64,000 nucleotides of DNA from a virus. Below, piece by piece: positions 4,723 through 50,390 of the stretch. A program made the translations under genes and the position numbers. Each line of letters opens with the position of its first letter. The first letter of the stretch is position 1. The notes under the pieces are model-generated. The model worked only from the letters and a program-made list of their open reading frames with translations, ran no database searches and was not told the DNA's origin. Location: positions 1 through 64,000 of the IMG/VR virus record IMGVR_UViG_3300037087_000760; one strand, given 5' to 3'.

Positions 4723-5538
4723 ATGATAACCAAATTCAAATTATTTGAAACATATAAGGAAGATGACAGTGATCTCAAAGGTAGTGAAGAATGGATAGAT
4801 CTTCAAAAAGATGCCAGAAAACAAACCTTATTGGGTAAACATATCAGATATTGTTATGAATTTGAAGATAGAAGATATGGATTTGAATTGGAGGACGAAT
4901 CTAAACTTATGTTTGATGAAAATATGAACTGGATAGAATACGATTTACCAGACAGGGATCATTATATTACTCAAAAAGCAAAAGATGACTATGATTTAAC
5001 TCGATCTTTCAAAGATTGGAAGAATGGAGGGGATGAACCGATATTTCCTACTAAATCGGAAGCTAAAAAATTTATTGATTTTTGTCAAAAATATCTCAGA
5101 GAAAAGCCAAAAATAAAACTCAAATATCTTTTAACAAAAGATTATAAAGAAAAGAAAGTTCCAATGGTTTCCAAAGAAGATATTGAAAAGGTATTATTGG
5201 GGGAAGTTGTCACTATACGAGAAATTGATGACATTGATACAAATAGACGAGTTACATATAAAGATGTGGAATGGACTTGTACCAATATTAATTATGAACC
5301 AGAGGAAAATCGTTTATGGAATTATATACATTTAAGATTTGAAAACAAAGATAAAGATGATTTTTTCTTAGGATTCAATTCCGCATATAAAATATCCTAT
5401 ATTATAAATTTTAACGAACTTGGTGAAAAAGGAAAAGAAGAAATAGAGTTGACTTTCGGTAATGATGATGAAAATTTAATTAATAAAAGATCAGAATTCA
5501 AACCGATAATTAAAGAATTACAAAAATTATTCAAATAA
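4723..5538 (+). CDS. Capsid-targeting-like protein of unknown function
   Basis: A 271-residue protein that begins MITKFKLFETYKED, another capsid-targeting-like start with a candidate cleavage site after the first glutamates. The body is highly charged, with EDRRYGFELEDESKLMFDE, and shows no family I recognise. It lies in the late + strand run between two other genes with the same type of start. Likely an internal virion protein by inference. Confidence 0.6.
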   Translation: MITKFKLFETYKEDDSDLKGSEEWIDLQKDARKQTLLGKHIRYCYEFEDRRYGFELEDESKLMFDENMNWIEYDLPDRDHYITQKAKDDYDLTRSFKDWKNGGDEPIFPTKSEAKKFIDFCQKYLREKPKIKLKYLLTKDYKEKKVPMVSKEDIEKVLLGEVVTIREIDDIDTNRRVTYKDVEWTCTNINYEPEENRLWNYIHLRFENKDKDDFFLGFNSAYKISYIINFNELGEKGKEEIELTFGNDDENLINKRSEFKPIIKELQKLFK

Positions 5539-6957: not shown

Positions 6958-7232
6958 TTTTCTTTTAATTGTTTTGTTAATTCCTTTCTTCTTTCAATTG
7001 CTTTCTCTTTATCTTCCCATTTTTCAATGAAAGTTTTTTTGAAATAGAATTTGTAATAAATAACATAAAATTTCCCTTCTTTTTCAATAACATATCTCCT
7101 TGTGGTAAATAAAGTCAACTCACTCATTAAGTAATTCCATTTTCCCTCGAAAGCAAAATGATATGTCTTTGTCCCGTATGATATATAGACAGAGAATTTA
7201 CTACCGTTTATATAAAATTTTTTAAAGTTCAT
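6954..7232 (-). CDS. Hypothetical protein, 92 aa, basic
   Basis: Unrecognised basic, aromatic-rich protein of 92 residues, probably mainly beta strand in the first half and helical at the C-terminus ([18 protein letters not shown]). Its start overlaps the end of the EF-G gene by 11 bases and its stop overlaps the RNA ligase start by 4, so it belongs to the EF-G/ligase operon. Confidence 0.55.
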
Positions 7233-9364: not shown

Positions 9365-9399
9365 GTATAACATATCTTAAATTTTATTTATTTTATTTG

Positions 9400-9474
9400 A
9401 GTCAGAGGAGGGATTCGAACCCACGATTGTACGGTTTTGCAGACCGGTGCTTTTGACCACTCAGCCACCCTGAC
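9400..9474 (-). tRNA. tRNA-Cys (GCA)
   Basis: Seven-base acceptor stem (GTCAGGG with CTCTGAC), T arm with TTCGAAT loop, anticodon loop CTGCAAA and discriminator U73, which fits cysteine. The outermost anticodon-stem pair is mismatched. It is the last gene of the minus-strand tRNA array. Confidence 0.85.
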
Positions 9475-9477
9475 GAA

Positions 9478-9609
9478 TTATTCTTCTTTGGATTCCTCTA
9501 ATCTTTTCCTGTCGAATTCTAACCATTCATCCAGTTTTTCATCAGTAAAAGAATTGAGTAATTCTACAAAATCCTCATATAAAGTATCCAAATCTATTCC
9601 TTTTTCCAT
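9478..9609 (-). CDS. Small acidic protein, 43 aa
   Basis: A 43-codon frame starts with ATG at 9607-9609, inside the end of the Mom-like gene, and stops just before the tRNA-Cys. The product (begins MEKGIDLDTLYEDFVELL) is acidic and helical. The overlap with the upstream coding sequence suggests translational coupling. Unrecognised. Confidence 0.45.
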   Translation of the reverse strand: MEKGIDLDTLYEDFVELLNSFTDEKLDEWLEFDRKRLEESKEE

Positions 9610-10214
9610 TTTACATTTAATGACTTATCGAATACTAACAAATATCTATGTTTACGACTTCGAGGTCTCCATTCACCCTCGACATCTTTCACTTTCCCCC
9701 TTGATTGCTTTATATATGTTCCATCTGGTTTTTTAATCCAGAAATCATTTTTGGGTTCTGTTAAACCATAATATTGAAAATTACATGCTTTATATATCGT
9801 ACCTAAATGAAAATCAGCATCAGCATAACTCAATATAACTCTAACTTTCGTATCTTTTCTCAATTGACGAATCGCCCTCGATACAAACCAACTGGTAATA
9901 TTATGTTCTACTTTTTGAATATCTGGATGAACACATAATCTACTCAACTCAAATAAACCCTCTTGATCATTTCTTTCCAATCCTAACATCCCCTTAGAAA
10001 GTTCTGGAACTGGAAAACCAGTGAAAATAATCACACCAACTAATTGTTCATTTTCAAACAGACCGTAATTAAAACCACTTTTAAATCCTCTGGAGATGTC
10101 TTTGAGATAATGAAATTTCAATAATAATTCACCAGCTTGTTCTTTGGTAATTCTACTCACATTGAAATTTTCTTTCATACCCTCATTTATAAACTCCAAA
10201 AATGTTTTTATCAT
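9594..10214 (-). CDS. Mom-like acyltransferase-fold protein with capsid-targeting-like N-terminus
   Basis: A 206-residue protein starting at the ATG at 10214, which gives MIKTFLEFINEGM, a model capsid-targeting sequence with cleavage expected after INE. The body has the GNAT-related layout of phage Mu Mom-type proteins: a chain entry HYLKDISRGFKSGFNYGLF, strand GVIIFTGFPV, then LFELSRLCVHP, WFVSRAIRQLRK and VILSYADADFHLGTIYKACNF. Mom modifies adenine in phage DNA to resist restriction; whether this one modifies DNA is inference. A late box lies just upstream. A longer frame from 10238 is possible but loses the motif. Confidence 0.6.
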   Translation of the reverse strand: MIKTFLEFINEGMKENFNVSRITKEQAGELLLKFHYLKDISRGFKSGFNYGLFENEQLVGVIIFTGFPVPELSKGMLGLERNDQEGLFELSRLCVHPDIQKVEHNITSWFVSRAIRQLRKDTKVRVILSYADADFHLGTIYKACNFQYYGLTEPKNDFWIKKPDGTYIKQSRGKVKDVEGEWRPRSRKHRYLLVFDKSLNVKWKKE

Positions 10215-10219
10215 GATTG

Positions 10220-10229
10220 TATATATTAA
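10220..10229 (-). promoter_or_regulatory. Late-type promoter box (TTAATATATA)
   Basis: TTAATATATA on the minus strand lies only six bases before the ATG of the Mom-like gene, closer than the ~20 bases usual here. Confidence 0.45.
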
Positions 10230-10249
10230 TATACTCAATCATGAATTAG

Positions 10250-10342
10250 AAGCGGGGGTAGGAGTCGAACCCACTATCTAAAGGTTATGAGCCTTTAATG
10301 ATTTATGTTGACGAATCAACAATTCCGTTTCACTCTCCCGCA
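10250..10342 (-). tRNA. tRNA with anticodon CAT, inserted hairpin in D loop
   Basis: The anticodon arm is AAAGG-CTCATAA-CCTTT and the T arm has loop TTCGACT. The D loop is about 28 bases because of an inserted perfect hairpin (GTTGA-TTCG-TCAAC). In the acceptor stem the position 1-72 pair is U·U and the seventh pair is A·C. It could be elongator Met or an Ile tRNA needing lysidine; the sequence does not decide. Confidence 0.6.
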
Positions 10343-10356
10343 ATGTATTAAAATAG

Positions 10357-10445
10357 TAGCGGATGTAAGATTCGAACTTACGACTTCCTTATGGGAAGTT
10401 TCAGCTTATGAGACTGAGGAGATAGGCCAACTTCTCTAATCCGCG
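10357..10445 (-). tRNA. Class II tRNA with anticodon CAT
   Basis: The anticodon arm is TCAGT-CTCATAA-GCTGA. It has a long variable arm (ACTTCC with GGAAGT around CATAA), D loop with GG, T loop TTCGAAT and discriminator A73. Long variable arms belong to Leu, Ser and Tyr tRNAs in bacteria, none of which normally carries CAT. The 1-72 pair is C·U. Aminoacylation identity cannot be assigned. Confidence 0.6.
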
Positions 10446-10452
10446 ATGTGTG

Positions 10453-10553
10453 TCCTACTGTTGGTGCGACCAACCTTTCTGGAACTCATTATACCGTAGG
10501 TTAGAGCGACCAACTTTATTAGTTCAATGATATTTCCCTCTGAATTAGTAGGA
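10453..10553 (-). other. tRNA-like element A in spacer
   Basis: A 101-base spacer bounded by a perfect seven-base inverted repeat (TCCTACT and AGTAGGA) where an acceptor stem would be. Reading the minus strand, a TTCA/TGAA D-like stem and a GTTGG/CCAAC stem next to the 3' arm follow, but the T loop is only five bases and no clear anticodon arm is seen. Possibly a decayed or divergent tRNA. Confidence 0.25.
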
Positions 10554-10558
10554 CTTAG

Positions 10559-10630
<72 letters not shown>

Positions 10631-10635
10631 ATATA

Positions 10636-10884
10636 TTATTTCAATTCATGTCTGCACAATGGACATTCTTTAATTTTTATCAACCAATGAATAGTTCTCA
10701 CTACCGTTTTTTCTGGGTCATCAAAACACACCTTTTCACCATCCCAAATTCCTACGATTGATGTTTTCACAGTTTTACCATTAACTCTTTTTATGTTATG
10801 GTATTGAACTAAATCACCTTTCTTAATATCATCTAATTGTTTACCAATCAGATTTCCGTAATTGTCGTATTTACTTTCTTCCAT
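10636..10884 (-). CDS. Hypothetical protein with C-terminal CxxC
   Basis: An 82-residue protein inside the tRNA array. The middle (KKGDLVQYHN and VGIWDGEKVCFDD) looks like a small beta barrel; the end has CPLCRHE, half of a zinc site. The early promoter at 10889 ends only a few bases before its ATG, so its leader must be very short. Unrecognised. Confidence 0.55.
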   Translation of the reverse strand: MEESKYDNYGNLIGKQLDDIKKGDLVQYHNIKRVNGKTVKTSIVGIWDGEKVCFDDPEKTVVRTIHWLIKIKECPLCRHELK

Positions 10885-10888
10885 TTTA

Positions 10889-10922
10889 CAAAGATATAAA
10901 TAAATATTCTAATTAAAAAATC
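10889..10922 (-). promoter_or_regulatory. Early-type promoter (T-tract + TATCTTTG)
   Basis: Reading minus: a T-tract ending in TTTTTTAAT, about 17 bases, then TATCTTTG. It matches the early consensus and drives the 82-aa gene inside the tRNA array. Confidence 0.55.
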
Positions 10923-10926
10923 ATTG

Positions 10927-10999
10927 AGATCGGAGAGGGAATCAAACCCCCGTCTCTGAGGTTGCAGCTCAGCACCTATTTACACTCGGCCATCCGACC
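10927..10999 (-). tRNA. tRNA-Cys (GCA), second copy
   Basis: Anticodon arm CTGAG-CTGCAAC-CTCAG, acceptor GGTCGGA with TCCGATC, discriminator U73 and T loop TTTGATT. Differs widely from the first Cys tRNA, so not a recent duplicate. Confidence 0.8.
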
Positions 11000-11004
11000 A
11001 TTTG

Positions 11005-11077
11005 AGCGATAAGTGGGGGTCAAACCCACGACCTTCAGCTTGGGAAGCTGACACTCTATCAACTGAGCTATTATCGC
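11005..11077 (-). tRNA. tRNA-Gly (TCC)
   Basis: Canonical cloverleaf: acceptor GCGATAA/TTATCGC, D arm AGCTC...GAGT, anticodon arm CAGCT-TCCC region giving loop CTTCCCA, T loop TTTGACC, U73. G1:C72, C2:G71, C35, C36 and U73 are the glycine identity set. Confidence 0.88.
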
Positions 11078-11130
11078 ATCCGTTTGACACATCCTTTGAC
11101 ATCACCCTCTCTCCGTTATATCAAACAGCG

Positions 11131-11202
11131 AGCGAGTAATCAGAATCGAACTGACATCATCGGTATGGTAAGCCGATACACTACACATTGTGCTATACTC
11201 GC
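11131..11202 (-). tRNA. tRNA-Gly with rare anticodon ACC
   Basis: Aligned with bacterial glyT-type tRNAs, the arm is TCGGC-TTACCAT-ACCGA, which puts ACC at 34-36 with a C31·A39 mismatch. Acceptor GCGAGTA/TACTCGC, T loop TTCGATT and U73 give all glycine identity elements. A 34 in a Gly anticodon is very rare in bacteria. A nine-base loop closed by TCGG/CCGA is an alternative reading. Confidence 0.65.
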
Positions 11203-11277
11203 GAATCAGTACCCGCACTTTCCGCCTTAATTATTCCCTGTTACACTGCGGTTAGGGAGTTGGTTATGATAGACCTG

Positions 11278-11360
11278 AGCGGGAGAAGGGATTCGAACCC
11301 TCACCTGAAGTTTGGAAGACTCCTATGCTAGCTTACGCGACCGTTAAACACCACTCCCGC
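11278..11360 (-). tRNA. tRNA-Gly (TCC) with enlarged D loop
   Basis: Acceptor GCGGGAG/CTCCCGC, anticodon arm GGAGT-CTTCCAA-ACTTC, T loop TTCGAAT and U73. The D loop is about 19 bases, roughly ten longer than normal, after the conserved AACGG. Confidence 0.75.
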
Positions 11361-11371
11361 GAGTGATTTTG

Positions 11372-11442
11372 AGCAGATAATGAGAATCGAACTCACATCA
11401 AAAGATTGGAAATCTCTTACACTACCATTGTGCTATATCTGC
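11372..11442 (-). tRNA. tRNA-Gly (TCC), third copy
   Basis: Acceptor GCAGATA/TATCTGC, D arm GCAC...GTGT, anticodon arm AGAGA-TTTCCAA-TCTTT, T loop TTCGATT, U73. Compact and canonical. Confidence 0.85.
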
Positions 11443-11446
11443 GTAA

Positions 11447-11555
11447 AAGGTCAGTATGTCGAATGTATTCGGACTGATTTTCGTTTTGCACATTCCTAAT
11501 CATCTGTCTTAACATCTCAGTTCACCGCCATTGTGCTACCGCGTTTACTGACCTT
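11447..11555 (-). other. tRNA-like element B in spacer
   Basis: A 109-base spacer closed by a perfect nine-base inverted repeat (AAGGTCAGT and ACTGACCTT). Near its 5' end (minus strand) is a D-arm-like string TAGCACAATGG, as in the Gly tRNAs here. No canonical T loop is present. Possibly a decayed or highly divergent tRNA. Confidence 0.25.
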
Positions 11556-11557
11556 GG

Positions 11558-11629
11558 AGCGGGATGCGGGATTTAAACCCGCGACCTGAAGTTTGGTAAA
11601 CTTCCGCTCTATCACTGAGCTAATCCCGC
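11558..11629 (-). tRNA. tRNA-Gly with anticodon ACC, second copy
   Basis: Well-paired cloverleaf: acceptor GCGGGAT/ATCCCGC, D arm AGCTC...GAGC, anticodon arm GAAGT-TTACCAA-ACTTC (perfect five pairs), T loop TTTAAAT, U73. The anticodon reads ACC without ambiguity and all glycine identity elements are present. Confidence 0.8.
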
Positions 11630-11717
11630 GTGGGAGGCTATCTAAACTCTTTGACCCAATCAGATTTCTCCTGTCATGAGTTAACTTCGCCTTATTAGTT
11701 TTTCGAATGTTTTTTAG

Positions 11718-11789
11718 TAGCCCCGGCGGGAATCGAACCTGCATCCAGAAATTAGAAGTTTCTTGTTCTATCCATTGAACTACGGAGCC
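11718..11789 (-). tRNA. tRNA-Arg (TCT)
   Basis: Canonical: acceptor GGCTCCG with CGGGGCT (1-72 is G·U), D loop with AATGG, anticodon arm AGAAA-CTTCTAA-TTTCT, T loop TTCGATT, A73. It reads AGA, a codon common in AT-rich genomes. Confidence 0.88.
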
Positions 11790-11838
11790 ATACTTTATAT
11801 AAACTATTTACCACCATTAAGTTTAATATTAATTATTG

Positions 11839-11916
11839 TAACCCTGAAGGGATTCGAACCCTCATTTTCATCCGTTATGCACAATCGAGTTTAGAAAACT
11901 CAGCCATTACAGGGCT
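11839..11916 (-). tRNA. tRNA-Arg-like (TCT) without a visible D arm
   Basis: Acceptor AGCCCTG/CAGGGTT with A73, T arm GAGGG-TTCGAAT-CCCTT and a perfect anticodon arm TGAGT-TTTCTAA-ACTCG are present. Only seven bases separate the acceptor from the anticodon stem, too few for a D arm, while about 22 bases lie between anticodon and T arms. The AACGG typical of D loops here lies in that second stretch. Confidence 0.5.
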
Positions 11917-11921
11917 ATTTG

Positions 11922-12003
11922 TACCGATGGAGAGATTCGAACTCTCACTTCCGATGGAAACAAGTTCCTAAAACTTGCGTGTCTACCATTCCACCACACC
12001 GGC
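11922..12003 (-). tRNA. tRNA-Leu (TAG)
   Basis: Class II tRNA: acceptor GCCGGTG/CATCGGT, D arm with GGAATGGTAGAC, anticodon arm CAAGT-TTTAGGA-ACTTG, long variable arm (TTCC/GGAA type), T loop TTCGAAT, A73. Confidence 0.88.
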
Positions 12004-12037
12004 TTAAAAAGTTAAATAAGTTGTGATATTGTACACC

Positions 12038-12114
12038 ATACCCAACCCAGAGTCGAACTGGATTAGTTGGGGTCTCGAACCCCGCTTCACACAACCACCT
12101 ACTACCGTTCAGTA
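12038..12114 (-). tRNA. tRNA-like gene, candidate anticodon CGA
   Basis: The T arm (TCCAG-TTCGACT-CTGGG) and an arm GGGG-TTCGAGA-CCCC are clear; if the latter is the anticodon arm it reads CGA (Ser), but the variable region is only five bases. The best acceptor (TACTGAA/TTGGGTA) has a G·G mismatch and the D region is unstructured. Identity uncertain. Confidence 0.4.
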
Positions 12115-12128
12115 TTATTCAACCTTAG

Positions 12129-12198
12129 CAGTACAAGCAGGAATCGAACCTACATCCACCCTCTACTGAGGGTACTCTTTCCATTAAGCTACTGTACT
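12129..12198 (-). tRNA. tRNA-like gene with abnormal anticodon loop
   Basis: Acceptor AGTACAG/TTGTACT with discriminator G, T arm GTAGG-TTCGATT-CCTGC and an AATGG D loop are normal. The anticodon arm ACCCT-CAGTAG-AGGGT has a six-base loop without U33 and could even close to a tetraloop. GTA can be read but position 33 is A. A1-U72 with G73 resembles Trp. Identity not assignable. Confidence 0.5.
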
Positions 12199-12262
12199 TA
12201 CACATCAATTTTATTCTAGCTTATTATGATGTGATTTACACTTTTGATGTAAATATCTTTTA

Positions 12263-12330
12263 GTACTCTAAAAGGATTCGAACCTATACTCCTCGCTTAC
12301 GCGAGTGTGCTACCATTACACCATAAAGTC
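12263..12330 (-). tRNA. tRNA-like gene with anticodon loop reduced to GTAA
   Basis: The D arm (GTGT-AATGGTA-GCAC) and T loop (TTCGAAT) are normal, but between them lies CTCGC-GTAA-GCGAG, a five-pair stem closed by a GNRA-type tetraloop where a seven-base anticodon loop belongs. The gene is 68 bases, three or four shorter than usual. The 1-72 pair is G·A and the T stem has a U·U. Confidence 0.45.
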
Positions 12331-12344
12331 AACTTTCGTCATTG

Positions 12345-12425
12345 ACACTGACATATCATTTCGGAAAGAACACATATTTTACTCCTTTCTGATTGTCAGA
12401 TCTTACTCGTTTCAAATTCCAGTGT
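12345..12425 (-). other. tRNA-like element F in spacer
   Basis: An 81-base spacer bounded by ACACTG/CAGTGT. On the minus strand it holds internal hairpins TCTGA-CAA-TCAGA and GAAAG...CTTTC. Clover-like in outline but with no T loop; function unknown. Confidence 0.2.
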
Positions 12426-12430
12426 TTTTG

Positions 12431-12503
12431 CAGGCAGTACGGGAGTTGAACCCGCTCCGAACGCCGTGACAGGGCGACATCTTAACCGTTTGACCTACTG
12501 CCT
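12431..12503 (-). tRNA. tRNA-Asp (GTC)
   Basis: Acceptor AGGCAGT/ACTGCCT, anticodon arm CGCC-CTGTCAC-GGCG, T loop TTCAACT, G73 as expected for Asp. Confidence 0.83.
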
Positions 12504-12521
12504 ATGTAGGGGAACATTCTG

Positions 12522-12598
12522 CGGGCCCAGTGGGATTCAAACCCACCTGTTATTCCTGATCGACAGTCAGGTAGACACATCCAGCATCTCCTGAGCCC
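12522..12598 (-). tRNA. tRNA-Asp (GTC), second copy
   Basis: Acceptor GGGCTCA/TGGGCCC, D stem AGAT/GTCT, anticodon arm CCTGA-CTGTCGA-TCAGG, an eight-base variable region, T loop TTTGAAT, G73. Confidence 0.82.
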
Positions 12599-12609
12599 AT
12601 TCATTATTG

Positions 12610-12709
12610 CGGTAGGAGTTGGGATCGAACCAACATATAAAGCATTCATCCTATCAGACTACTTCTGATGTCCATCGGTGGCACCCTATGAACTTTATGC
12701 TATCCTACC
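12610..12709 (-). tRNA. Enlarged tRNA-like gene, identity unknown
   Basis: Perfect acceptor (GGTAGGA/TCCTACC), T arm GTTGG-TTCGATC-CCAAC and G73. About 65 bases lie between position 9 and the T stem, against ~40 normally, forming GTTCAT/ATGGAC and ATCAG-AAGTAGT-CTGAT hairpins. The second could be an anticodon arm reading GTA but lacks U33. Confidence 0.45.
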
Positions 12710-12773
12710 ATTTATTTTTAGTATCCAATATGTCAAAGAACATATTATAATGTCAAAGAAACATTATAATTGG

Positions 12774-12848
12774 CGGTACATTACGGTTTCGAACCGTTGA
12801 TTTTACATGGGTGACAACCATGTTCCTCACCAAGAGGCCTAATGAACC
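12774..12848 (-). tRNA. tRNA-Asp (GTC), third copy
   Basis: Anticodon arm CATGG-TTGTCAC-CCATG, D stem CCTC/GAGG, T loop TTCGAAA, G73. The acceptor (GGTTCAT/ATGTACC) has one U·U mismatch at the fourth pair. Confidence 0.75.
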
Positions 12849-25403: not shown

Positions 25404-25428
25404 GGTAGATGATTTTTAGTTTGAACTA

Positions 25429-25462
25429 CAAAAATACGAAGTTTTCTCCGAATAAAAAAATA
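25429..25462 (-). promoter_or_regulatory. Early-type promoter (T-tract + TATTTTTG)
   Basis: Minus strand: TATTTTTTTATTCGG, spacer, TATTTTTGTAG. Drives 25403 down to about 21847 and shares its A/T tract with the + strand late box. Confidence 0.6.
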
Positions 25463-25470
25463 ATATATAG
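25461..25470 (+). promoter_or_regulatory. Late-type promoter box (TAATATATAG)
   Basis: TAATATATAG, 20 bases before the ATG at 25490, back to back with an early promoter. Confidence 0.5.
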
Positions 25471-25489
25471 AAAGAAAAACTATATTACC

Positions 25490-25738
25490 ATGAAATATAT
25501 TAAATTGTTCGAAGATTATAGTAGTGAAAAAATAGATACTCGTTTAGTTTCTGGTGTTAAGGCCAATGATGTGGTTAGTTATTTTGATAGAAATGTTGAT
25601 GATATCGGGGCACAGTTCATAGATTTCGATACAGTTGAATTGATGGTCTATAATACCGATGATATGACCCAAGATGAAATTGATGAAAAATTAGACGGAG
25701 CTGAGGATACTATTTTTAGTGCACACTTAAAAAAATGA
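25490..25738 (+). CDS. Small acidic protein with capsid-targeting-like N-terminus
   Basis: An 82-residue protein from the ATG at 25490 (a longer frame from 25409 would cross both promoters). Begins MKYIKLFEDYSSEK, capsid-targeting-like. The remainder is acidic with a possible ferredoxin-like strand-helix order. It converges on the sulfotransferase gene with a 23-base overlap. Confidence 0.6.
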   Translation: MKYIKLFEDYSSEKIDTRLVSGVKANDVVSYFDRNVDDIGAQFIDFDTVELMVYNTDDMTQDEIDEKLDGAEDTIFSAHLKK

Positions 25739-27537: not shown

Positions 27538-28524
27538 TTATTTATGTAAGTCCCTGTATTTGTTGTTATAAGAAATACAAACGTCAAGGCAGTTTCCTCT
27601 ACAAATTGGATCTTCAAAACAGTTATGTTCATCGAACCATTTCTTTCTATCTGATCTCATATTTTCAGAAACCTCTCCAATTGGTTGACCATATTCTCTC
27701 ATATAAATAACACAAGGAAAATGGAAATTTCCGGCTATAACAGAATCATCCAAAACCAATGCACATTTCGATGAATCAGTTTCAGACATGCCTCTTACAT
27801 TGATTCCGTTCCTGAAATGATTTACCCTGTATTTAAGGATCGGGTACTTATTCAATAATTCTTCAGGTACTTGACCAAGAGCTTCAATCGGTTCATTCCA
27901 TTGGGCTGCCGAAATAATACGAATATCGGATACCCCCCTTGAATCAGCAAACTTGATTGTATCAATAGTTTTCTGAACATTATCGGGTGTTAAAACAACA
28001 CCAACTGTAACATAAGTGAGTTTGGAAATATGTTTGATATTTTCAACGACTTTTTCAAATGAACCAATAACCCCACCAGACATTTTTTCTCCATCATCAG
28101 CACAACAGGCATCCAATGAAATTGAGAAGTCATTAACTCCAGCCTCAATCAATTCATCGTATAGTGTAGTTCTGTTAGAACCATTGGTAGAAATGGCAAT
28201 TCTTTTAATACCCTTTGACTTAGCGTACTTTACGATTTCAATAATATCGGGATGTAATGTAGGTTCACCACCAGAAAAACGAATGTTCTCCAGAGGTAAG
28301 GGTTCACACCACAAATCGATGTTTCTTTTAATTTCTTCCAGAGAAAGCATTTTGAATTTACGATCACCGTAGATCCAAGCTTTCAAACCACGACAGTAAG
28401 GACATTTGAAATTACAATATTCAGTGATAATCATCTCACATCTTTTCATTTGAGATGAATCAGACGAATTTTTGGCTCTTTCGTCAGAAAGGGAATAGAA
28501 ACCTATATTCTTTAAATCAGTCAT
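27538..28524 (-). CDS. Radical SAM enzyme with SPASM-like C-terminus
   Basis: A 328-residue radical SAM protein. The [4Fe-4S] motif is CNFKCPYC (~34-41), followed by the SAM-binding FSGGEPTLHP and STNGSN. The C-terminal third has further cysteines (CALVLDD, CVIYMRE, CFEDPICRGNCLDVC), as in SPASM/twitch domains that carry auxiliary clusters. Such enzymes modify peptides or proteins; the substrate is unknown, though adjacent small genes could encode one. A variant early promoter (TAATTTTA) lies just upstream. Confidence 0.8.
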   Translation of the reverse strand: MTDLKNIGFYSLSDERAKNSSDSSQMKRCEMIITEYCNFKCPYCRGLKAWIYGDRKFKMLSLEEIKRNIDLWCEPLPLENIRFSGGEPTLHPDIIEIVKYAKSKGIKRIAISTNGSNRTTLYDELIEAGVNDFSISLDACCADDGEKMSGGVIGSFEKVVENIKHISKLTYVTVGVVLTPDNVQKTIDTIKFADSRGVSDIRIISAAQWNEPIEALGQVPEELLNKYPILKYRVNHFRNGINVRGMSETDSSKCALVLDDSVIAGNFHFPCVIYMREYGQPIGEVSENMRSDRKKWFDEHNCFEDPICRGNCLDVCISYNNKYRDLHK

Positions 28525-28544: not shown

Positions 28545-28578
28545 GTAAAATTACTAAAATTCTATGACATAAAAAAAT
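28545..28578 (-). promoter_or_regulatory. Variant early-type promoter
   Basis: Minus strand: AATTTTTTTATG, spacer, TAATTTTA; the final G of the box is A. About 20 bases before the radical SAM start. Confidence 0.4.
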
Positions 28579-30581
28579 TAAAGATTAACTTTCTTATTTT
28601 GAATGCTATTTTTTGATACAACCCTGACGATATAAGTACCATTAACTACATTGGTAGGAATGGTATTATTTTCATCATATATCTTCAAATGTTGAATTTC
28701 TTTACCCAATACATCATAAATATAAACATCAGATTCACCTTTATTATTAGTGATATAAACATTCTTATCATAAGAATAGATGTTTAATGATGTACTTACG
28801 ATATTATCGTTCACACCCGAAAGAGTACTTCCGAAATGTACCAGAAAACGATTGGGAATATCTGAAGTATCAGCCGTGAAAGTATATATTGGTTGTGTTT
28901 TTAAATTGATAATTTTATTCAATTTTGTATCTTCTAAAGTTACTTCATTTGAAAATGATAATTGAGTAGCTGTTAAAATATAACTTCCAGAAACCCCGAC
29001 AACCAAACCAACCTTTACGGTGGTGGCGTCCGATTCTGGAAATGTGTTTATACATTCCATTTCATTATCTTTTAATGAATAAATCTGAGGAATATTGGAA
29101 CTACCCATCCATTTTTCGACCATCCAATAATTAGGATTTCCTATCACATCATTATTGAATTTTATAACTGTTTCATCTGATGCATTGTTTCCTTCAACTT
29201 TTAATCGAAGAGAATTCGGAGTTGCCACCGTAATTTCCTTATAAAAAGGTCTGGAATTGTGCCTTCTACAATTATTATTGAATTGAATATATCCATTCGT
29301 ATATGGTTGATCAACCTTAACAAAGAATCCTTGCATCGGGGCTATGAACCTTGAACCACCATTTGTACTATCAGAATTATATCCATTTAACTTACCGATA
29401 TAAACCTTATAATAATAATTACCATTAACATCATAATCTAAAACCCAGCAATGAGGTAACATATTGGAAACATATATTTCTTGAGATTCCCAATTAATAG
29501 CACTCGGATATGGATTACCAATTAAATTATAACCACCACCAGTATTTGGGGTTCTTGTTAAATTTACTTGAATTTGTCCATTATTCAATCCCTGAGTGGT
29601 ATAGAAGGTATCAACTTTTGTAATACTATTACCGTTTCCATCAGATGACCAAACTTCATATCCCCTTCCAAGTGGTAATGGAATGTTAGTTGGAACAATA
29701 TATTGACTCCAAACACCAGCTACTTCGTCATAGTATCGTAAATAATCATGAAGAAAGGTATTGGAGACGGCATTTGGAATAGGTGATGTAATATAATGCC
29801 ATTGACCACCTTTAATATATTGTTCTACTTTAGTTGTTCCATTTAAAGTTATCTTATTGTCATTTACTGTTGTGTCAGATAAGATTGATGCGGTATTCGT
29901 TGAATTAGATTCCAAGGTCAAATTATATCCATCGAAAGTACCCATAATGGTTGTTCTTGTAATCGGAGCCAATTTAAAATTAACCTTTTGACTATTGGTA
30001 TTGGTAAGTAGATTTATTTTATTATCCACAGTTAAACCAATGGTTGTAATATATAGTGTTGTGGAAGATGATACTGATTGTAGAATTACACTTTTATCAT
30101 TACCATTACCTGTTTTTTGAATGTATAACGAACCAATGATCTGATTCGGTACATTGGTAATAGTAATATTACTATTCGTACTGATTACCAACTGATCATT
30201 ATTCTGTGGTGTATTACGAGTTGGATTCCAATTTGAACCCGTTTGCCAATTACCATTATTAGAACCGATCCATGTATATGTGGTTTGACTAAATCCAACA
30301 TTACACATCATCATAAAAAGAATCAAATAAAATGTTTTTTTCATAAAATTTGGATTTTTTCTGTTTTTTATTTCTTCATAGATTTTATATGCACCATAGG
30401 TTACACCCAATACAATGAGTATTACAACTCCATCATCTATTGGTGCACCAACTGGTGTTCCACCACCCGGAATCGGATTTCCACCGGGATCTGGGGGATT
30501 GGGTTGATCAGCTAATGAGGTAATACAAATACCGATAGTAAACAAAATCAGCAATACAAAGTTTTTCAGTTTATTTTTCAT
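28578..30581 (-). CDS. Secreted protein with PID-CTERM-like segment and T9SS type A sorting domain
   Basis: A 667-residue export protein of Bacteroidetes type. Residues 1-78 look like a small PID-CTERM protein: signal peptide, proline/glycine linker with PVGAPIDDG, one membrane helix (VVILIVLGVTYGAYKIY) and a basic end. A second signal peptide then begins in frame at residue 79 (MKKTFYLILFMMM...GFSQ). The body is beta-rich. The last ~75 residues (LNIYSYDKNVYI, VYIYDVLGKEIQ, IPTNVVNGTYIVRV) match the T9SS type A sorting domain that directs export across the outer membrane. The second part could also start alone at 30347. Confidence 0.75.
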   Translation of the reverse strand: MKNKLKNFVLLILFTIGICITSLADQPNPPDPGGNPIPGGGTPVGAPIDDGVVILIVLGVTYGAYKIYEEIKNRKNPNFMKKTFYLILFMMMCNVGFSQTTYTWIGSNNGNWQTGSNWNPTRNTPQNNDQLVISTNSNITITNVPNQIIGSLYIQKTGNGNDKSVILQSVSSSTTLYITTIGLTVDNKINLLTNTNSQKVNFKLAPITRTTIMGTFDGYNLTLESNSTNTASILSDTTVNDNKITLNGTTKVEQYIKGGQWHYITSPIPNAVSNTFLHDYLRYYDEVAGVWSQYIVPTNIPLPLGRGYEVWSSDGNGNSITKVDTFYTTQGLNNGQIQVNLTRTPNTGGGYNLIGNPYPSAINWESQEIYVSNMLPHCWVLDYDVNGNYYYKVYIGKLNGYNSDSTNGGSRFIAPMQGFFVKVDQPYTNGYIQFNNNCRRHNSRPFYKEITVATPNSLRLKVEGNNASDETVIKFNNDVIGNPNYWMVEKWMGSSNIPQIYSLKDNEMECINTFPESDATTVKVGLVVGVSGSYILTATQLSFSNEVTLEDTKLNKIINLKTQPIYTFTADTSDIPNRFLVHFGSTLSGVNDNIVSTSLNIYSYDKNVYITNNKGESDVYIYDVLGKEIQHLKIYDENNTIPTNVVNGTYIVRVVSKNSIQNKKVNL

Positions 30582-30609: not shown

Positions 30610-30643
30610 CAAAGGTATGTAATATTATTGAGATAAAAAAATT
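30610..30643 (-). promoter_or_regulatory. Early-type promoter (T-tract + TACCTTTG)
   Basis: Minus strand: AAATTTTTTTATCTC, spacer, TACCTTTGTTG. Drives the T9SS cargo gene. Confidence 0.6.
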
Positions 30644-37153: not shown

Positions 37154-40100
37154 TTAAAATTTTATGATATAGAATCTTCCTTGGTCAATGATATAATAAC
37201 CAAAATCAGTCGTGAAGTATCTATAATCCAAACTATTAAAATTAGTATTGACCAACATGAAAGACCTACCTTCATTATAATTGAATAACTTATTATTTGT
37301 CATTCCGAGTCCATATCCATTATAAGATTCCGTTTCAATATACATATAAGGATCTACACTTGCATCAATATTGAAACTATAAGAAAGTAAATCTTTTTTG
37401 TAAAGTTCATGATATTGTACTGGTTCGAGTTCATTTGTTGACTGATTCAACCTGAATGTTTTTATTTTAGCAGTATAGTAATCCGGCATCGTACAACCAG
37501 TAATCATATAGAAATTAACCGTCATTAAATAATCAGTTCCCGTATTCAAGGTTTGAATGTAATCGAAATTAACAGCATTAACCTGTTGAGTCACTGATAT
37601 TTTTCTGACACGATTCGATGGATCGTAATCCATGTACATAGTCGCCACAGTTTGTTCGAGACCAGTAATATCAAGAATATTAGCTGATAGTGGAATTATA
37701 TTTCTCCTTAACCATTTAACCAATCCAGTAAGTTTTGTCTGTACCTCGGCTAATGAATATAAGTTAATATAATTTCCATCAAAATCTGTAATATGATAAG
37801 TTAAATTGAATAAGTTAGTTTTTTTATAGTTCATAGAATCTGGTTCATGAGATGTCCATCCCGGAACACTTCTATCGAATATATTTTCAATCAAAATCTT
37901 ATGAAGTTTACCATACAACAAAGAACCCTGTTTGATATTTCGATAATATTCATATAAATCCAAATCATTATATCCAAAGTAATTAATAGCATTAATAAGA
38001 GCACGATATGAACCAATATAATTATATATCTCTGGATGAACGGCTAATAATTCTTTTCTTTTTCTGTTTAGAATTGTAAAATCAATACCAGCATCTTCGA
38101 TATCACTTTCTTTATAAATTGGATAGGCATCTAATCCCAAATTAGATCCCAACATTTTCAAATTTTGATCGAATCTGTAATCTTCTATTTCAGTTTGTCC
38201 ATATAATTGAATTGTCGCTATAAGAGATGGTTCTACTTTAATTATAAAATCATATGTCTTACCTGATGCTGATGTATCAAAGAATGGTAGATTTGTATTG
38301 TCTACTGTTATTTTATTTTTTGTTAAATCGACAATCTGACTAATAGCGTAACTTTCATATAAAGTTTCTCCCGTTACAGTTATTTCAAAAAAATTCAATG
38401 ATATATTCAGCCCTACATCTAAACCAGTGTTATTAAAACTGAAAAATATATCATCAGTAATATAAGATATCGTATTTCCACTGATTAGAAAATTAACTTT
38501 TTTACCTATTTTGTTTGATGTTGTTCCAGTAAATGTTGTATGTTCGATTTGTTCAATTCTCATTGTATCTGTAATCACACCTTCATTCGGTGTATTGAAT
38601 CCCAAGAAAATTTCAAGTGGAATTGGATGATAATCATAAAAATTAGCAGCATTATATTCTTCTAATGGATATAACAATTCGTTAAAAATAGTTTGTTGAT
38701 ATTCTGGATTTGCTATCTCCAATGGATTAGTGTTTACATTTCTATTCAAAAAAACCAAATTCGTATAACCTGAATTAAACAATGGTTTTGGGCCTATATA
38801 AGTCAGATTTCCGTTTGGTTGAATTTGGTCACCTGAATAATCATAATAGAATATACTTTCGTCATACGGATCTTCCCAACTCATTTTATAATAAACCTGT
38901 TTATTGTAGTTTCCTCTTGGTTTTCTTAAAAATTCATGAATTGATATAGTAAGATTTTCAGTATAATTATTATCACTCGACCATCCGAAAAATGGACCCT
39001 GATATGATAATTGAATTGTATCTTCAGTTAATCTTAATATATTATATTGCTTATTATTTAATGTATGAGTAGAACCACTGACGGATATAATCATACCCGT
39101 AGTCAATTCAAAATCAAATAAATTCTGAGATACAGAAAATAATTCATTACTCGATATAACCATTGAATGATTTATCGTATTTTCTATTATGGTATAAGTA
39201 GAATAAGAATTAACCTTAATCTCCAAATTTATAATTTCTACATTCGGATATTGACCCTCTAATGTTAATGTATATCCACTCGTTGTTGTCCCACTACTCA
39301 GTGTAATTCCATTTTGATCAAACATTGTAAAATATTTGTCTATAAAACTATTTATGGTATCTATTGTACAACTGGTGACAGTTCCAGAAAGAGGAACATA
39401 AAAATTATTTTCATTTATTGTTAATTGAATTCCATAATTTACAGAATCAATTCCCAAATCAAATAGAATTGTTGTTTTGAAATTGTGGGCCAATAAAGTT
39501 GTATCATAAAGATGTATTGTTTCGTTTTGTAATTGTTCATTTACATTGAAATAATAAGCATCGGTTACTCCCGTCATCGTTGTTCCACTATCATAATAAT
39601 CAAAGTTTTTACCAATTGTAAGAGGAATATTATTTATCGAAGATTTGGCTGAAAAATATGGATGCCAATTATAATCCAATCCACCCAAAACCATGAAATT
39701 ATTAGTCCCATTATTCCAATGAAAACAATCAAATCCATAACGATTAAACATATTTGCATATTTATTTCTTATGGCTGTTATTGTGTTCTCATAGAAATAG
39801 GTTGTATTACCAGAATTTAAGATGTCTTGATTTACAAAGAGTTTATTTGTTGTGGAAAAACAAGTTGTGAAACCTGACCAAATGACTGTTGGTGGACAAG
39901 CGACAGCGTTTTGTTGAGCATATAATTTTTTAATCCTTTTTTTATTAATGGTTTTATCAATTTTATATGTATATCCACTCTCAGGAATTATATATTCAGC
40001 CACTTCAATTCTTCCATTTTGAATATCCAGAACTTGGAAACTTCTATTATCATGAAATGTTAATCCCGAAAGATTTGGAATGGCTGTTAAATGTATAATA

Positions 40101-41149
40101 TCATTATAGGTAAATCCAGTAATTGTACTTGTAGTTTCTATATAATTCAATCCATTCAGAACATAAAATTTACAAGTATCAGTTGTTAAATATTGAGTAT
40201 CAGCAAAACCTGTTATTGTAAATGTTGGATTATTTGGATGTATATATCCACCATTTATATCTTCGAATATCACGGTTTGACCAGTAGACACAAAATCAAT
40301 AGTTGTGTTTATCCCATTCATAAACTCGATTGTAGTTCCACTATATCCAGTATCATTATAAGTTATTTTAACATTTCCCTCATACAATTCGGGTCTTTGT
40401 GTAAACAATTCAATTTCCATTGAGATCGTACCACCTGTTACTCCACTTAAAAATAAAAAATCATAAAATTTATTATTTAAAATATTATAATCATTATATG
40501 TAAATACTCCATTATTTGAAGAACTATTAACTACGGATATTTTTTTATTTTTATAAAAATTCAAATTTGTTATATCAACTAATTTTTGTTGACCATAATC
40601 TAATACCTTAATAATATTAGCAGAAGATACTGTTCCACCACTGTTCAAAGTAAAATCAAAAGTATAGTTATCTGTTTTAGTTTCGACTAAAATGGCATTT
40701 TTTCTATGACCGAGAACATCAAAAAATGTTATTCCACTTGATATGAAATCATTATTTCCAATTCCAGTTCCAGTTACATTATTAAAATAAACAACACTTC
40801 CAATTGTAAACTTTTTATCGAAATCAGTTCCGTAAATCCATTTAGAATAAAAATTTGGATTACTATTTACTTTTTGAATATTTATAATATCTTGATTTTC
40901 AAATGTTTTACCAACAAAAGTTGTTCCACTCCAATTGAATAACTGTGATTCTCTTAAATCAAATTCAGAATTAAAATTATATGGTTTAACATCTTCAAAT
41001 ACATAAATGCAAAGGGTTCTAAATGTATCACTACTATTTTCATCAAAGAATATTTTTCCACTCCAAGTTTGTCCTGTCGGATCATATATGAAGTTATATG
41101 GAAATCCTTCTTTATTAAAAAACATTAGATTGTCAAATTGTGAGTTCAA
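37154..41149 (-). CDS. Large virion structural protein (tail/baseplate)
   Basis: A 1331-residue protein, the largest here. It consists of many beta-strand segments with Gly/Thr/Asn turns (for example SGTTTSGYTLTLEG; TDTCKFYVLNGLNYIETTS), typical of tail and baseplate proteins, and a helical region near 1000-1150. It shares a late promoter and strand with the fibre genes. The frame begins with TTG at 41149, well spaced from the late box; ATG at 41125 is an alternative. Baseplate wedge or tail-spike role is inferred from size, composition and context. Confidence 0.6.
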   Translation of the reverse strand: MNSQFDNLMFFNKEGFPYNFIYDPTGQTWSGKIFFDENSSDTFRTLCIYVFEDVKPYNFNSEFDLRESQLFNWSGTTFVGKTFENQDIINIQKVNSNPNFYSKWIYGTDFDKKFTIGSVVYFNNVTGTGIGNNDFISSGITFFDVLGHRKNAILVETKTDNYTFDFTLNSGGTVSSANIIKVLDYGQQKLVDITNLNFYKNKKISVVNSSSNNGVFTYNDYNILNNKFYDFLFLSGVTGGTISMEIELFTQRPELYEGNVKITYNDTGYSGTTIEFMNGINTTIDFVSTGQTVIFEDINGGYIHPNNPTFTITGFADTQYLTTDTCKFYVLNGLNYIETTSTITGFTYNDIIHLTAIPNLSGLTFHDNRSFQVLDIQNGRIEVAEYIIPESGYTYKIDKTINKKRIKKLYAQQNAVACPPTVIWSGFTTCFSTTNKLFVNQDILNSGNTTYFYENTITAIRNKYANMFNRYGFDCFHWNNGTNNFMVLGGLDYNWHPYFSAKSSINNIPLTIGKNFDYYDSGTTMTGVTDAYYFNVNEQLQNETIHLYDTTLLAHNFKTTILFDLGIDSVNYGIQLTINENNFYVPLSGTVTSCTIDTINSFIDKYFTMFDQNGITLSSGTTTSGYTLTLEGQYPNVEIINLEIKVNSYSTYTIIENTINHSMVISSNELFSVSQNLFDFELTTGMIISVSGSTHTLNNKQYNILRLTEDTIQLSYQGPFFGWSSDNNYTENLTISIHEFLRKPRGNYNKQVYYKMSWEDPYDESIFYYDYSGDQIQPNGNLTYIGPKPLFNSGYTNLVFLNRNVNTNPLEIANPEYQQTIFNELLYPLEEYNAANFYDYHPIPLEIFLGFNTPNEGVITDTMRIEQIEHTTFTGTTSNKIGKKVNFLISGNTISYITDDIFFSFNNTGLDVGLNISLNFFEITVTGETLYESYAISQIVDLTKNKITVDNTNLPFFDTSASGKTYDFIIKVEPSLIATIQLYGQTEIEDYRFDQNLKMLGSNLGLDAYPIYKESDIEDAGIDFTILNRKRKELLAVHPEIYNYIGSYRALINAINYFGYNDLDLYEYYRNIKQGSLLYGKLHKILIENIFDRSVPGWTSHEPDSMNYKKTNLFNLTYHITDFDGNYINLYSLAEVQTKLTGLVKWLRRNIIPLSANILDITGLEQTVATMYMDYDPSNRVRKISVTQQVNAVNFDYIQTLNTGTDYLMTVNFYMITGCTMPDYYTAKIKTFRLNQSTNELEPVQYHELYKKDLLSYSFNIDASVDPYMYIETESYNGYGLGMTNNKLFNYNEGRSFMLVNTNFNSLDYRYFTTDFGYYIIDQGRFYIIKF

Positions 41150-41168
41150 AATAGAATTGTTTTTTCTT

Positions 41169-41178
41169 TATATATTAA
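41169..41178 (-). promoter_or_regulatory. Late-type promoter box (TTAATATATA)
   Basis: TTAATATATA on the minus strand, ~20 bases before the TTG start at 41149. Confidence 0.55.
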
Positions 41179-41201
41179 AAGAGGTGAGTAGTAAAAACAT
41201 T

Positions 41202-41969
41202 TTAATACATTCTATTTGGTGGAATAAAATCTCTTTTCCATCTATAATGTCCATTTGTTATTCTGAATTCACAATAATAAGCTGATAAACTGGATATTAC
41301 TGATGATATTCCACCAATCAAATATGGAAAATTAAGAAGGGGCATTGAATAAGTTGGTGTTATTTTTTTAGTCGCCACTATTTTCCCATTAAAAAATAAT
41401 CTTATCGTATCAAAATATCTGGATACAGCCACATGATACCAATTTACAGCGTCGGGCCAAATACTTGTAATTCCTGACATGGTTAAAAAGAAGTCCCATG
41501 AACCAGCATTTTTTACCCCAAAAGTTAATCCTGTACTGTGGGTTAATAACGGGGAAATCCCACCATCAATAAAAAAACCGTAGAAATTATTTGAATTGAA
41601 AACACAACCATTACTTCCAAAATTTTGTCCGACTGCTGATATAGGACCACCACCAGTTACTTTTATCCAAAAATCTATGCAGAAATTATTTGTTCCAAAA
41701 TTCCAATCGCTTGTGTTAGTATCACAAGATAGTACACGAAATCCACCACCGAATGATGTTGCATTCCAACATGGACTATTATTGAAAACTCCACCAGTTG
41801 AAGATTGTGTTACTCCAGTTAATGTACATTGATGGGGGGAAGAAGATCCTCTCGACACATCCCAAAAATAAGGTTTTGGTGGTGGAATGGGCGTTATGAC
41901 AGTTTCATTTCCATGTGATAAAAATGTACAGAATTTATCATTACCAAATCCATTTTTATGTGTTATCAT
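41202..41969 (-). CDS. LamG-domain protein (probable receptor-binding)
   Basis: A 255-residue protein with a concanavalin/LamG-like jelly-roll: NFCIDFWIKVTGGG, WDFFLTMSGI, NWYHVAVSRYFDTIRLFFNGKIVA and a final YYCEFRITNGHYRW. This order is standard for LamG folds that bind glycans. Together with the collagen-like gene that overlaps its start by four bases, it is probably a fibre-tip or receptor-binding module. Proline-rich N-terminal linker (PIPPPKPYFWD). Confidence 0.65.
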   Translation of the reverse strand: MITHKNGFGNDKFCTFLSHGNETVITPIPPPKPYFWDVSRGSSSPHQCTLTGVTQSSTGGVFNNSPCWNATSFGGGFRVLSCDTNTSDWNFGTNNFCIDFWIKVTGGGPISAVGQNFGSNGCVFNSNNFYGFFIDGGISPLLTHSTGLTFGVKNAGSWDFFLTMSGITSIWPDAVNWYHVAVSRYFDTIRLFFNGKIVATKKITPTYSMPLLNFPYLIGGISSVISSLSAYYCEFRITNGHYRWKRDFIPPNRMY

Positions 41970-43141
41970 ACATAAGGTATTATTTCAGGAACATCATTTA
42001 TAAATGTTAAAGCAACAGTTAAATCAGAAGCATCTGCCCCAACAGGAAAAATACCACCTTTTTGTGTGGTAGTTAATTCTAAAACATCACCCATTTTTAT
42101 GTTGTATTTATTAATATCAATTCCAATATCAGTAGAAGTATATGAAATGGAATTCATCTCAATTCCATCACCAGAATTATCCGTGCTAACCTTCTTCGAA
42201 TTAATTGTAGCATTTATTTTTGGTTGTATAGTTGCATTGGCATCGGATTTATGAACCCCCATTATTCTAACTAAAAGAGCAGAGTATTTTTGCCACTCAT
42301 ATCTAAATAAATTTAAATCGGATAATAAAGTTAATCCAGATACCATAGCATAAGATCCAGATATATTAAAATATTCATCTAAAACCATTTCCGGATTTCC
42401 ATAATATAAATTTTGTATATCGGGAAGATCACCAGTAAGAGGTGCACCAGCGATATAAATTGTATCCACTGTCATTCCAGTAATAATTCCATATTTCGAA
42501 ATCGAGGCTGTATTTCCACTATCAAAAAAGTATTTAAGAGGTGTTCCTATTTTTAAAGGACCGGGAGTTGTATTCGTATCCAGCCATGTCGTATCTGTAA
42601 ATGTGATACTATTTAAAGTTGTTGGAGTGATTGTAAATCCAGAGGGATTAATTAATGTCCAACGATCAGATGCTGTTGGTGTACTTCCATTCATACCAGA
42701 AGTACCAGCTGTTCCATTAACACCAACACCACTCGTTCCACTCGATCCACGGCCACTTGTTCCTGAACTACCTAAAAAAGTACCATCTTTCCCAGAACTA
42801 CCACTTGTCCCATGAGTACCAAGAAAACTACCATCTGCACCAGAAGTACCAGCTGTTCCACCTGTTCCCTGAGGTCCGACAACAGATAATCCACTTGTTC
42901 CAGCCGTTGCACTTGTTCCAGCACTTCCACTTTTACCTGATGTACCTGAAATACCACTCGTTCCATTTATACCAGCTGTTACCCCACTTTGAATATAAGT
43001 AATATTACCGTATTCATCCATTTGGGCTAATTTTCCACCCAATTGTGTTCCACCTGAGGTATCATATCCAAGAAGAAGCCACCCATCTCTGGGAAATTCT
43101 ACTTGTGTAAAATCTTGTACTTTAAGTTTTAATATACTCAT
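41966..43141 (-). CDS. Collagen-like tail fibre protein
   Basis: A 391-residue protein. Residues ~55-150 are Gly-X-Y collagen-like repeats rich in GTSG, GSSG and GKDG, which form triple helices in phage fibres. The N-terminal ~50 residues (FTQVEFPRDGWLLLGYD) would attach to the tail. The C-terminal domain is beta-rich. Late promoter; followed by the LamG gene in the same transcript. Confidence 0.75.
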   Translation of the reverse strand: MSILKLKVQDFTQVEFPRDGWLLLGYDTSGGTQLGGKLAQMDEYGNITYIQSGVTAGINGTSGISGTSGKSGSAGTSATAGTSGLSVVGPQGTGGTAGTSGADGSFLGTHGTSGSSGKDGTFLGSSGTSGRGSSGTSGVGVNGTAGTSGMNGSTPTASDRWTLINPSGFTITPTTLNSITFTDTTWLDTNTTPGPLKIGTPLKYFFDSGNTASISKYGIITGMTVDTIYIAGAPLTGDLPDIQNLYYGNPEMVLDEYFNISGSYAMVSGLTLLSDLNLFRYEWQKYSALLVRIMGVHKSDANATIQPKINATINSKKVSTDNSGDGIEMNSISYTSTDIGIDINKYNIKMGDVLELTTTQKGGIFPVGADASDLTVALTFINDVPEIIPYV

Positions 43142-49169: not shown

Positions 49170-50390
49170 ATGAAAAATTTACAAAATTTTGAAGAATTCA
49201 GAAATGAAGTTTTAGCTGATGAATTAATGAATGAGGGTATATTCAGTGATGCTTTGAAAAGTATTTGGAGTTTCTTCAAAGGATCATCTAAAAAATTTCA
49301 AGATAGTATTACCAATTTCACAAAGAAAATAGAAACTCAAAAAGGGTGGGATGCTGTTTATAAAACAACAGAAGCTGAAATAACGAATCTAAATCAAATT
49401 TTAACTGATGAAATCAATAACGCTCAGGATGTTTCTCAGGTTCGTAAATCATTATTTAATTTTCATAGAAATGTATTTTCCGAATTATTAATAGTGGCAA
49501 AAAAAATGGGGCCTAATGATCCTCAAGGTTATCTAACTCCAATAAAGTTATTTAATGGAACACCATTTTGGAAAATGTATAATTTTGATAAAACACAGAA
49601 ATTTGTAAATAATCTCCCGAAAGCCATAGACGCCTTAGTATTAGATATGGCTGGTAAATCTGGATTCTCAAAGGATGAAGTTCAAAAATCCATAAAACAA
49701 TATCCGAATCCAGCTGATATTCCAGAGAGTACAACTACCCCTCCAGTGAATACAAATCAACAACCGACTACTAATACTACAAAACAACCAACAACCCCGG
49801 CTCCAGCAAATACGAACTCTCCGACTCCGGCCCCAGCTCCAGCACCCACAACACCAGCTCCGACTAACGCTGGTTACATTTTGAATTTTTCTGAATTCAA
49901 TAAATTATATGAAGCTGGAGAACAACAACCCCCAGCAAATGCGGCCCCAGCTTCACCAGAGGCTGGAACTGGTACGAATACTACTAACCAGACGAATACT
50001 AATACTAACCAACAAAATAAAACCAATACTACGACTGATCAAAATAAGACGAATACTAACCAACAAACGAATACGACTGATCAAAATAAGACCAATCAAA
50101 ATACGGATATGACGAAATTAAAAGAACAGATCATCACTAATTCGAAATCTAATTTTCTTGGACAAATTGTTCAGAAAAAACTAAAAGATTTCAAATCAAA
50201 AGTGGTCAATCAACAAACAACAGGAGCTAACACTGATCAGGGTACGGAATCCATAGCCAAATCCATGAAGGCCTCCAACAATTTACAAACTAAGAAAAAT
50301 ATTTTGGATGCCGTTAAAAATTCCAATAAGGATACTTTAAAAAAGATAAGAGATATTGTTGGTGGAAAAGATAAGTTAGGTGCTTTATAA
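49170..50390 (+). CDS. Low-complexity protein with two capsid-targeting-like segments
   Basis: A 406-residue protein. It begins MKNLQNFEEFRNEV, a capsid-targeting-like start. Residues ~20-185 are helical. A long P/A/T/N/Q linker follows, interrupted at ~233-248 by a second targeting-like segment (ILNFSEFNKLYEAGE). The C-terminal ~90 residues are basic and helical. An internal protease site would split it into two cargo units. It ends at a strong terminator. Confidence 0.6.
   Translation: MKNLQNFEEFRNEVLADELMNEGIFSDALKSIWSFFKGSSKKFQDSITNFTKKIETQKGWDAVYKTTEAEITNLNQILTDEINNAQDVSQVRKSLFNFHRNVFSELLIVAKKMGPNDPQGYLTPIKLFNGTPFWKMYNFDKTQKFVNNLPKAIDALVLDMAGKSGFSKDEVQKSIKQYPNPADIPESTTTPPVNTNQQPTTNTTKQPTTPAPANTNSPTPAPAPAPTTPAPTNAGYILNFSEFNKLYEAGEQQPPANAAPASPEAGTGTNTTNQTNTNTNQQNKTNTTTDQNKTNTNQQTNTTDQNKTNQNTDMTKLKEQIITNSKSNFLGQIVQKKLKDFKSKVVNQQTTGANTDQGTESIAKSMKASNNLQTKKNILDAVKNSNKDTLKKIRDIVGGKDKLGAL

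Follow-up and report, generated by a model that had tools for sequence, protein, structure and literature searches.

By its sequence, a 667-aa open reading frame in an IMG/VR viral record is a real, well-formed phage gene for a type IX secretion system (T9SS) cargo of the RemA/RemZ family, carrying an unusual in-frame fusion to a PID-CTERM module. The record is a viral contig of 210,983 bp without end repeats, probably a fragment, and the window analyzed here is its first 64 kb. The encoded product is probably a phage-borne T9SS type A cargo that is exported in infection and alters the surface of the infected cell.

Domain layout and the T9SS sorting domain

The original prediction had placed the gene correctly at 28578-30581; it is read on the minus strand from 30581 to 28578, and the plus strand across the same interval is dense with stops. 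The earlier description of the product, a phage-encoded protein that is large, beta-rich and equipped with both T9SS and PID-CTERM signals, is backed by profile, structure and family evidence; the internal second signal peptide that was also proposed is present, with a model helix over it (Table 1). An AlphaFold model of the protein (mean pLDDT 77.8, 55 sequences in the alignment) contains three hydrophobic helices and is otherwise nearly all beta structure, with low to moderate confidence where the cargo part begins (its first 150 residues).

Table 1. Features of the cargo gene and its immediate flanks, in coordinates of the window.
Feature	Residues	Position	Strand	Basis
667-aa ORF, PID-CTERM module fused in frame to RemA/RemZ-like T9SS type A cargo	1-667	28578..30581	-	ATG start
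First signal peptide (MKNKLKNFVLLILFTIGICITSLA)	1-24	30510..30581	-	Sequence, hydropathy, model helix 2-24
PID-CTERM motif and membrane helix (GAPIDDGVVILIVLGVTYGAYKIY)	about 46-68	30378..30446	-	NF046080; helix 50-73
Met80, probable second translation start and start of cargo part	80	30342..30344	-	Start score
Internal second signal peptide (MKKTFYLILFMMMCNVGFS), cleavage expected before Gln99	80-98	30288..30344	-	Sequence; helix 77-93
N-terminal beta-rich region (TYTWIGSNNGNWQTGSNW...)	about 101-250	29832..30281	-	Model, low-moderate confidence
RemA/RemZ/Mfa5-like core (NLIGNPYPSAINW, PMQGFFVK motifs)	about 219-588	28818..29927	-	Profile
T9SS type A C-terminal domain, seven strands	600-667	28581..28784	-	TIGR04183, model, Foldseek
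Bacteroidota -7-like box TAnnTTTG (TACCTTTG), 36 bp upstream of ATG		30610..30617	-	Weak evidence
Radical SAM gene, next downstream, flank marker outside cargo		27538..28524	-	23 related IMG/VR contigs

The C-terminus had been read as a T9SS sorting domain, and this assignment is borne out by both profile and fold. TIGR04183 (Por_Secre_tail) matches the very C-terminus, residues 607-665 of 667, with 25.1 bits in an NCBIfam scan of the protein, barely above the cut-off of 23 bits, and with 31 bits in the genome scan, where it is the sole such match in the 211-kb record. The same profile rose above cut-off in 1 of 14 control genomes, a set whose Bacteroidota member is Bacteroides ihuae. In the model, the last 68 residues form a sandwich of seven strands (600-666, pLDDT above 90), the number described for T9SS C-terminal domains (CTDs) (PMC10994853). 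Foldseek matched this part to two solved T9SS CTDs, that of translocon-bound NucA (8glk), with a TM score of 0.74 by target length and an rmsd of 2.3, and that of mirolase, with TM 0.66-0.69; in the full-length search against the PDB no convincing whole-chain match was found, and the CTD part alone was convincing. Ahead of the cargo lies a Sec signal peptide, as judged from the sequence and the predicted helix.

Relationship to RemA and RemZ

RemA is a gliding adhesin of Flavobacterium johnsoniae and a T9SS type A substrate, as is its homologue RemZ. Relatives of the phage cargo were found at 73 loci in the genome collection, nearly all of them in Bacteroidota MAGs, the best having 29% identity with its best segment at residues 150-667 (E 4e-50; 6e-54 in a pairwise comparison). 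A family profile of 55 members, comprising the 667-aa protein and 54 of the 73 loci, aligned end to end with RemA (E 1.4e-81) and with RemZ (E 6.7e-72), giving a sequence relationship over core and CTD. As a single query, the 667-aa protein had no PDB match at E values up to 10, so the link to RemA rests on the family profile and the relationship is distant. We assign the protein body (roughly residues 100-667) to a family of surface proteins found in Bacteroidota.

The likeness to RemA and RemZ of F. johnsoniae (PDB 8gl6, 8gl8; PMC10994853) extends over body and CTD, 497 profile positions, and all three proteins have a type A CTD. In the family profile, the stretch WNGNTNTDWNTASNW of RemA lines up with the N-terminal beta-rich region of the phage protein. 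The phage protein is shorter, and RemA aligns only from its residue 892; the long N-terminal adhesin region before that residue has no counterpart in the phage protein in the profile alignment. It further differs from both proteins in being phage-encoded and in carrying the PID-CTERM module. RemZ and a RemA-CTD fusion have been seen bound in the translocon (PMC10994853). The profile core also resembles Mfa5, a minor fimbrium subunit of Porphyromonas gingivalis (6to1; E 2.4e-24), in a match confined to about profile positions 5-308 that does not cover the CTD region.

PID-CTERM fusion and a probable second start at Met80

The first 78 residues had been predicted to be a PID-CTERM protein fused in frame, and this was upheld: residues 1-79 scanned alone reach 29.7 bits with NF046080 (cut-off 26 bits), and residues 1-73 share 49% identity with the free-standing PID-CTERM protein of one bacterial host locus (L028, E 8e-20). 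In the full protein the match at residues 47-68 scores 25.4 bits, just below cut-off, and in the genome scan it scores 31 bits. The likeness to the small bacterial proteins of NF046080 runs along nearly their full length at up to 49% identity.

The bacterial copies are arranged differently. At 14 host loci the family cargo gene has a short PID-CTERM gene immediately downstream, at a gap of -14 to 107 bp; this adjacency of PID-CTERM and T9SS cargo genes suggests joint action. Bacterial PID-CTERM matches (26 in 7 genomes, and, within one order, 36 in 19 of 99 genomes, two sets that overlap in part) all lie in frames of at most 133 codons, whereas the phage motif is internal to a frame of 671 codons instead of ending a short protein of its own. 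Among about 55 bacterial copies no in-frame fusion to a cargo was found. The module is a separate gene downstream of the cargo in these bacterial loci and is upstream and fused in the phage, reversing the order. The N-terminal 79 residues correspond to a membrane peptide of the PID-CTERM kind, for which bacteria have a small gene of its own beside the family cargo; with stop codon and spacer gone in the phage, the two have become one reading frame.

Met80 looks like a genuine start. Its start score of 6.55, a level reached by only 0.8% of the 595 internal ATGs, lies at the 71st percentile of true starts; the start-site model was built from 146 long ORFs of the record and trained on its own best-scoring starts, so the score is support and not proof. 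Two products are likely, a PID-CTERM-plus-cargo chain from Met1 and the cargo from Met80. The segment between the second and third helices is rich in Lys and Arg (YKIYEEIKNRKNPNFMKK), so a polyprotein would be topologically consistent. From the model we infer a topology in which the second helix would run from outside to inside, the basic loop would lie inside, and the third helix would run from inside to outside and end at a signal peptidase site.

No other phage PID-CTERM was found. NF046080 gave no match above cut-off in the control genomes, tblastn with a bacterial PID-CTERM protein returned none in the phage collection, and a PID-CTERM DNA pattern recovered the record itself and 5 host loci but nothing further in IMG/VR. 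Absence from IMG/VR by this pattern is not proof, because the pattern is strict and misses most host copies. No literature naming PID-CTERM was found among the papers searched. The fused part offers a handle on PID-CTERM proteins.

Cargo genes in other phages

A TonB-dependent receptor encoded elsewhere in the record (151758-153890, +; also L008:12758-14890) has Pfam plug and barrel domains above cut-off and is conserved in 23 phage records. Its homologues were found in very large phages (735, 642 and 634 kb) as well as in Prevotella Lak phages (540-550 kb), so the record sits close to the Bacteroidota megaphages. That megaphages, among them LR745206, encode a TonB-dependent receptor has been noted earlier (PMC9723777).

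T9SS domains above cut-off were found in three phages of 634-735 kb (LR745206, LR756501 and LR756502) and in none of the three Lak phages tested. The 634-kb phage LR745206 encodes a 608-aa homologue (L003:5410-7236) that is related over the cargo body, has no PID-CTERM part and has a degenerate CTD of 18-19 bits, below cut-off. A nearly whole-length relative compared by fold only (E 2e-30) is A0A8D9C8P8, annotated as a putative hemin binding protein of an uncultured marine phage, and BFVD already labels other phage proteins with a "Secretion system C-terminal sorting domain". Queries of IMG/VR with the 667-aa protein, a two-phage alignment and the 55-member alignment found no further viral relatives of the cargo. 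The two phage homologues fall apart in the tree; separate acquisitions are not proven by this, since support for the deep splits is weak and LR745206 sits on a long branch.

Other phage genes also carry the domain. Two small secreted proteins that are related to each other and have strong T9SS CTDs are encoded at L012:1105-1704 (LR745206) and L117:1147-1707 (LR756502), each directly after a DnaJ-like gene, and this shared arrangement suggests inheritance within phages. ORFs of 136 aa at L119:1492-1902 (-) (LR756501) and L013:1282-1692 (LR745206) contain little beyond a signal peptide and a T9SS CTD. A secreted protein at L118:625-1965 (-) (LR756501) combines a T9SS domain, located within the N-terminal third of its length, with a FISUMP domain after it.

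The original prediction implied that a phage T9SS cargo was new, and in this respect it had been anticipated: Cryophage was reported in 2020 to encode such cargo, with hijacking of the host system suggested (PMC7468147), so that phage-encoded T9SS cargo as a kind is already known. In the available text of that report the Cryophage cargo is likewise phage-encoded, has T9SS type A sorting domains and is presumed to use the host system; it consists of an endoglucanase, a GH39 hydrolase and a PA14 protein, and that text mentions neither a PID-CTERM nor a second signal peptide. New in the present case are the occurrence of PID-CTERM in a phage, the in-frame joining of this protein to a cargo and the start-like Met80.

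Predicted role in infection

In the sequence of events that we propose, the cargo gene would have been acquired long ago from a Bacteroidota bacterium and retained by the megaphage. The cargo would be made in infection with its own signal peptide, either from Met80 or as a Met1 polyprotein cut before Gln99 by signal peptidase. It would cross the inner membrane via Sec, its CTD would dock on the host PorV-SprA translocon, and it would be released or displayed extracellularly as a coat of the adhesin or ligand-binding type, altering the infected-cell surface. Export of the protein to the surface is likely and well based, the homology to RemA and RemZ adding strength, and use of the host system with a changed outside of the infected cell is probable. 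Changed adhesion or receptor blocking is plausible, adhesion being the role that would best fit the RemA, RemZ and Mfa5 relatives; what the phage would gain is speculative. If the protein is exported, host type IX secretion serves the largest known phages, as well as the smaller Cryophage, for surface placement of proteins, and the gene is a concrete candidate for how uncultured megaphages change adhesion or block competitors.

A wider reading, which we regard as doubtful, takes the frame as the source of two envelope proteins, an inner-membrane PID-CTERM peptide and a RemA-like T9SS cargo, which, together with the TonB-dependent receptor and CTD-only proteins, would make up a phage program that rebuilds the Bacteroidota cell surface in infection. 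The cargo would again come from Met80 or from the polyprotein by signal peptidase cutting, the small CTD-only proteins would be those of the related megaphages, and exclusion of other phages would be one example of its use.

It is unlikely that the exported protein and its PID-CTERM helix instead serve to occupy PorV-SprA, lowering the export of a host adhesin that acts as phage receptor and so causing superinfection exclusion. RemZ is trapped in the translocon once transport power is removed (PMC10994853), and the 136-aa proteins of two megaphages would be apt for such competition and are possible translocon competitors. The trapping was seen only in disrupted-motor cells, however, the large folded body of about 500 residues would be unneeded for competition, and no direct test was found in the literature searched.

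Genomic setting

The gene has a GC content of 31.8% against 31.0% for the window and is flanked by phage genes. Its assignment to a phage draws on the IMG/VR record, a neighbor present in 23 viral contigs, a TonB receptor common to megaphages and the window-like GC. Contamination by host DNA was rejected on the phage-gene flanks, the GC content and the recurrence in phages. The radical SAM neighbor has MoaA as its best NCBIfam match, far under cut-off, and matches PADLOC pVip (prokaryotic viperin) at E 1e-18. A further PADLOC match, to ZorD (E 0.006), is at chance level.

None of the 23 records sharing the radical SAM neighbor, most of them fragments, has a T9SS domain, and a contig whose radical SAM neighbor is 83% identical has 1.1 kb where the record has 6.2 kb. 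The cargo gene is therefore accessory and looks dispensable in the lineage. Its absence from these relatives, the shorter interval in that contig and the lack of any other fused PID-CTERM would suit a chance passenger from a host, disrupted by the fusion and functionless, but we consider this quite improbable: the 2-kb frame is still open, both modules retain their motifs, the start context of Met80 is good, and three other megaphages likewise carry T9SS cargo. We regard it as very improbable that the protein is a virion component, a tail or capsid-decoration adhesin with a merely T9SS-like C-terminal fold, for while phages do use beta-rich adhesins and there are putative tail genes at a distance of some 7-12 kb (37154-43141, with one weak collagen-like tail match), the protein has two signal peptides, a CTD above cut-off, no PHROG match and relatives that are bacterial T9SS substrates.

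The gene had also been predicted to lie under an early promoter, which is not established. A single -7-like box precedes it, no -33 box was found at the usual spacing upstream of that box, and TAnnTTTG boxes upstream of genes are only mildly enriched (31 observed against 20.7 expected, sd 4.4).

Other genes of the record were noted in passing. Another envelope protein is encoded at 54428-55159 (-) of the window, a secreted protein of 243 aa that resembles an outer-membrane barrel (Phenol_MetA_deg, E 5e-10), and an elongation factor G with a full domain set (7222-9252, -) lies near 14 predicted tRNA genes at 9399-12848. About 15 proteins start with a MITKFKLFE / MKNIxxFEEF-like motif (4723-5538, 25409-25738 and 49170-50390 in the window, and elsewhere in the record); a loose pattern for it matched 17 of 304 ORFs against 2 of 647 internal Met positions. 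The motif recalls the capsid targeting sequence of T4, and its carriers are perhaps a set of internal head proteins.
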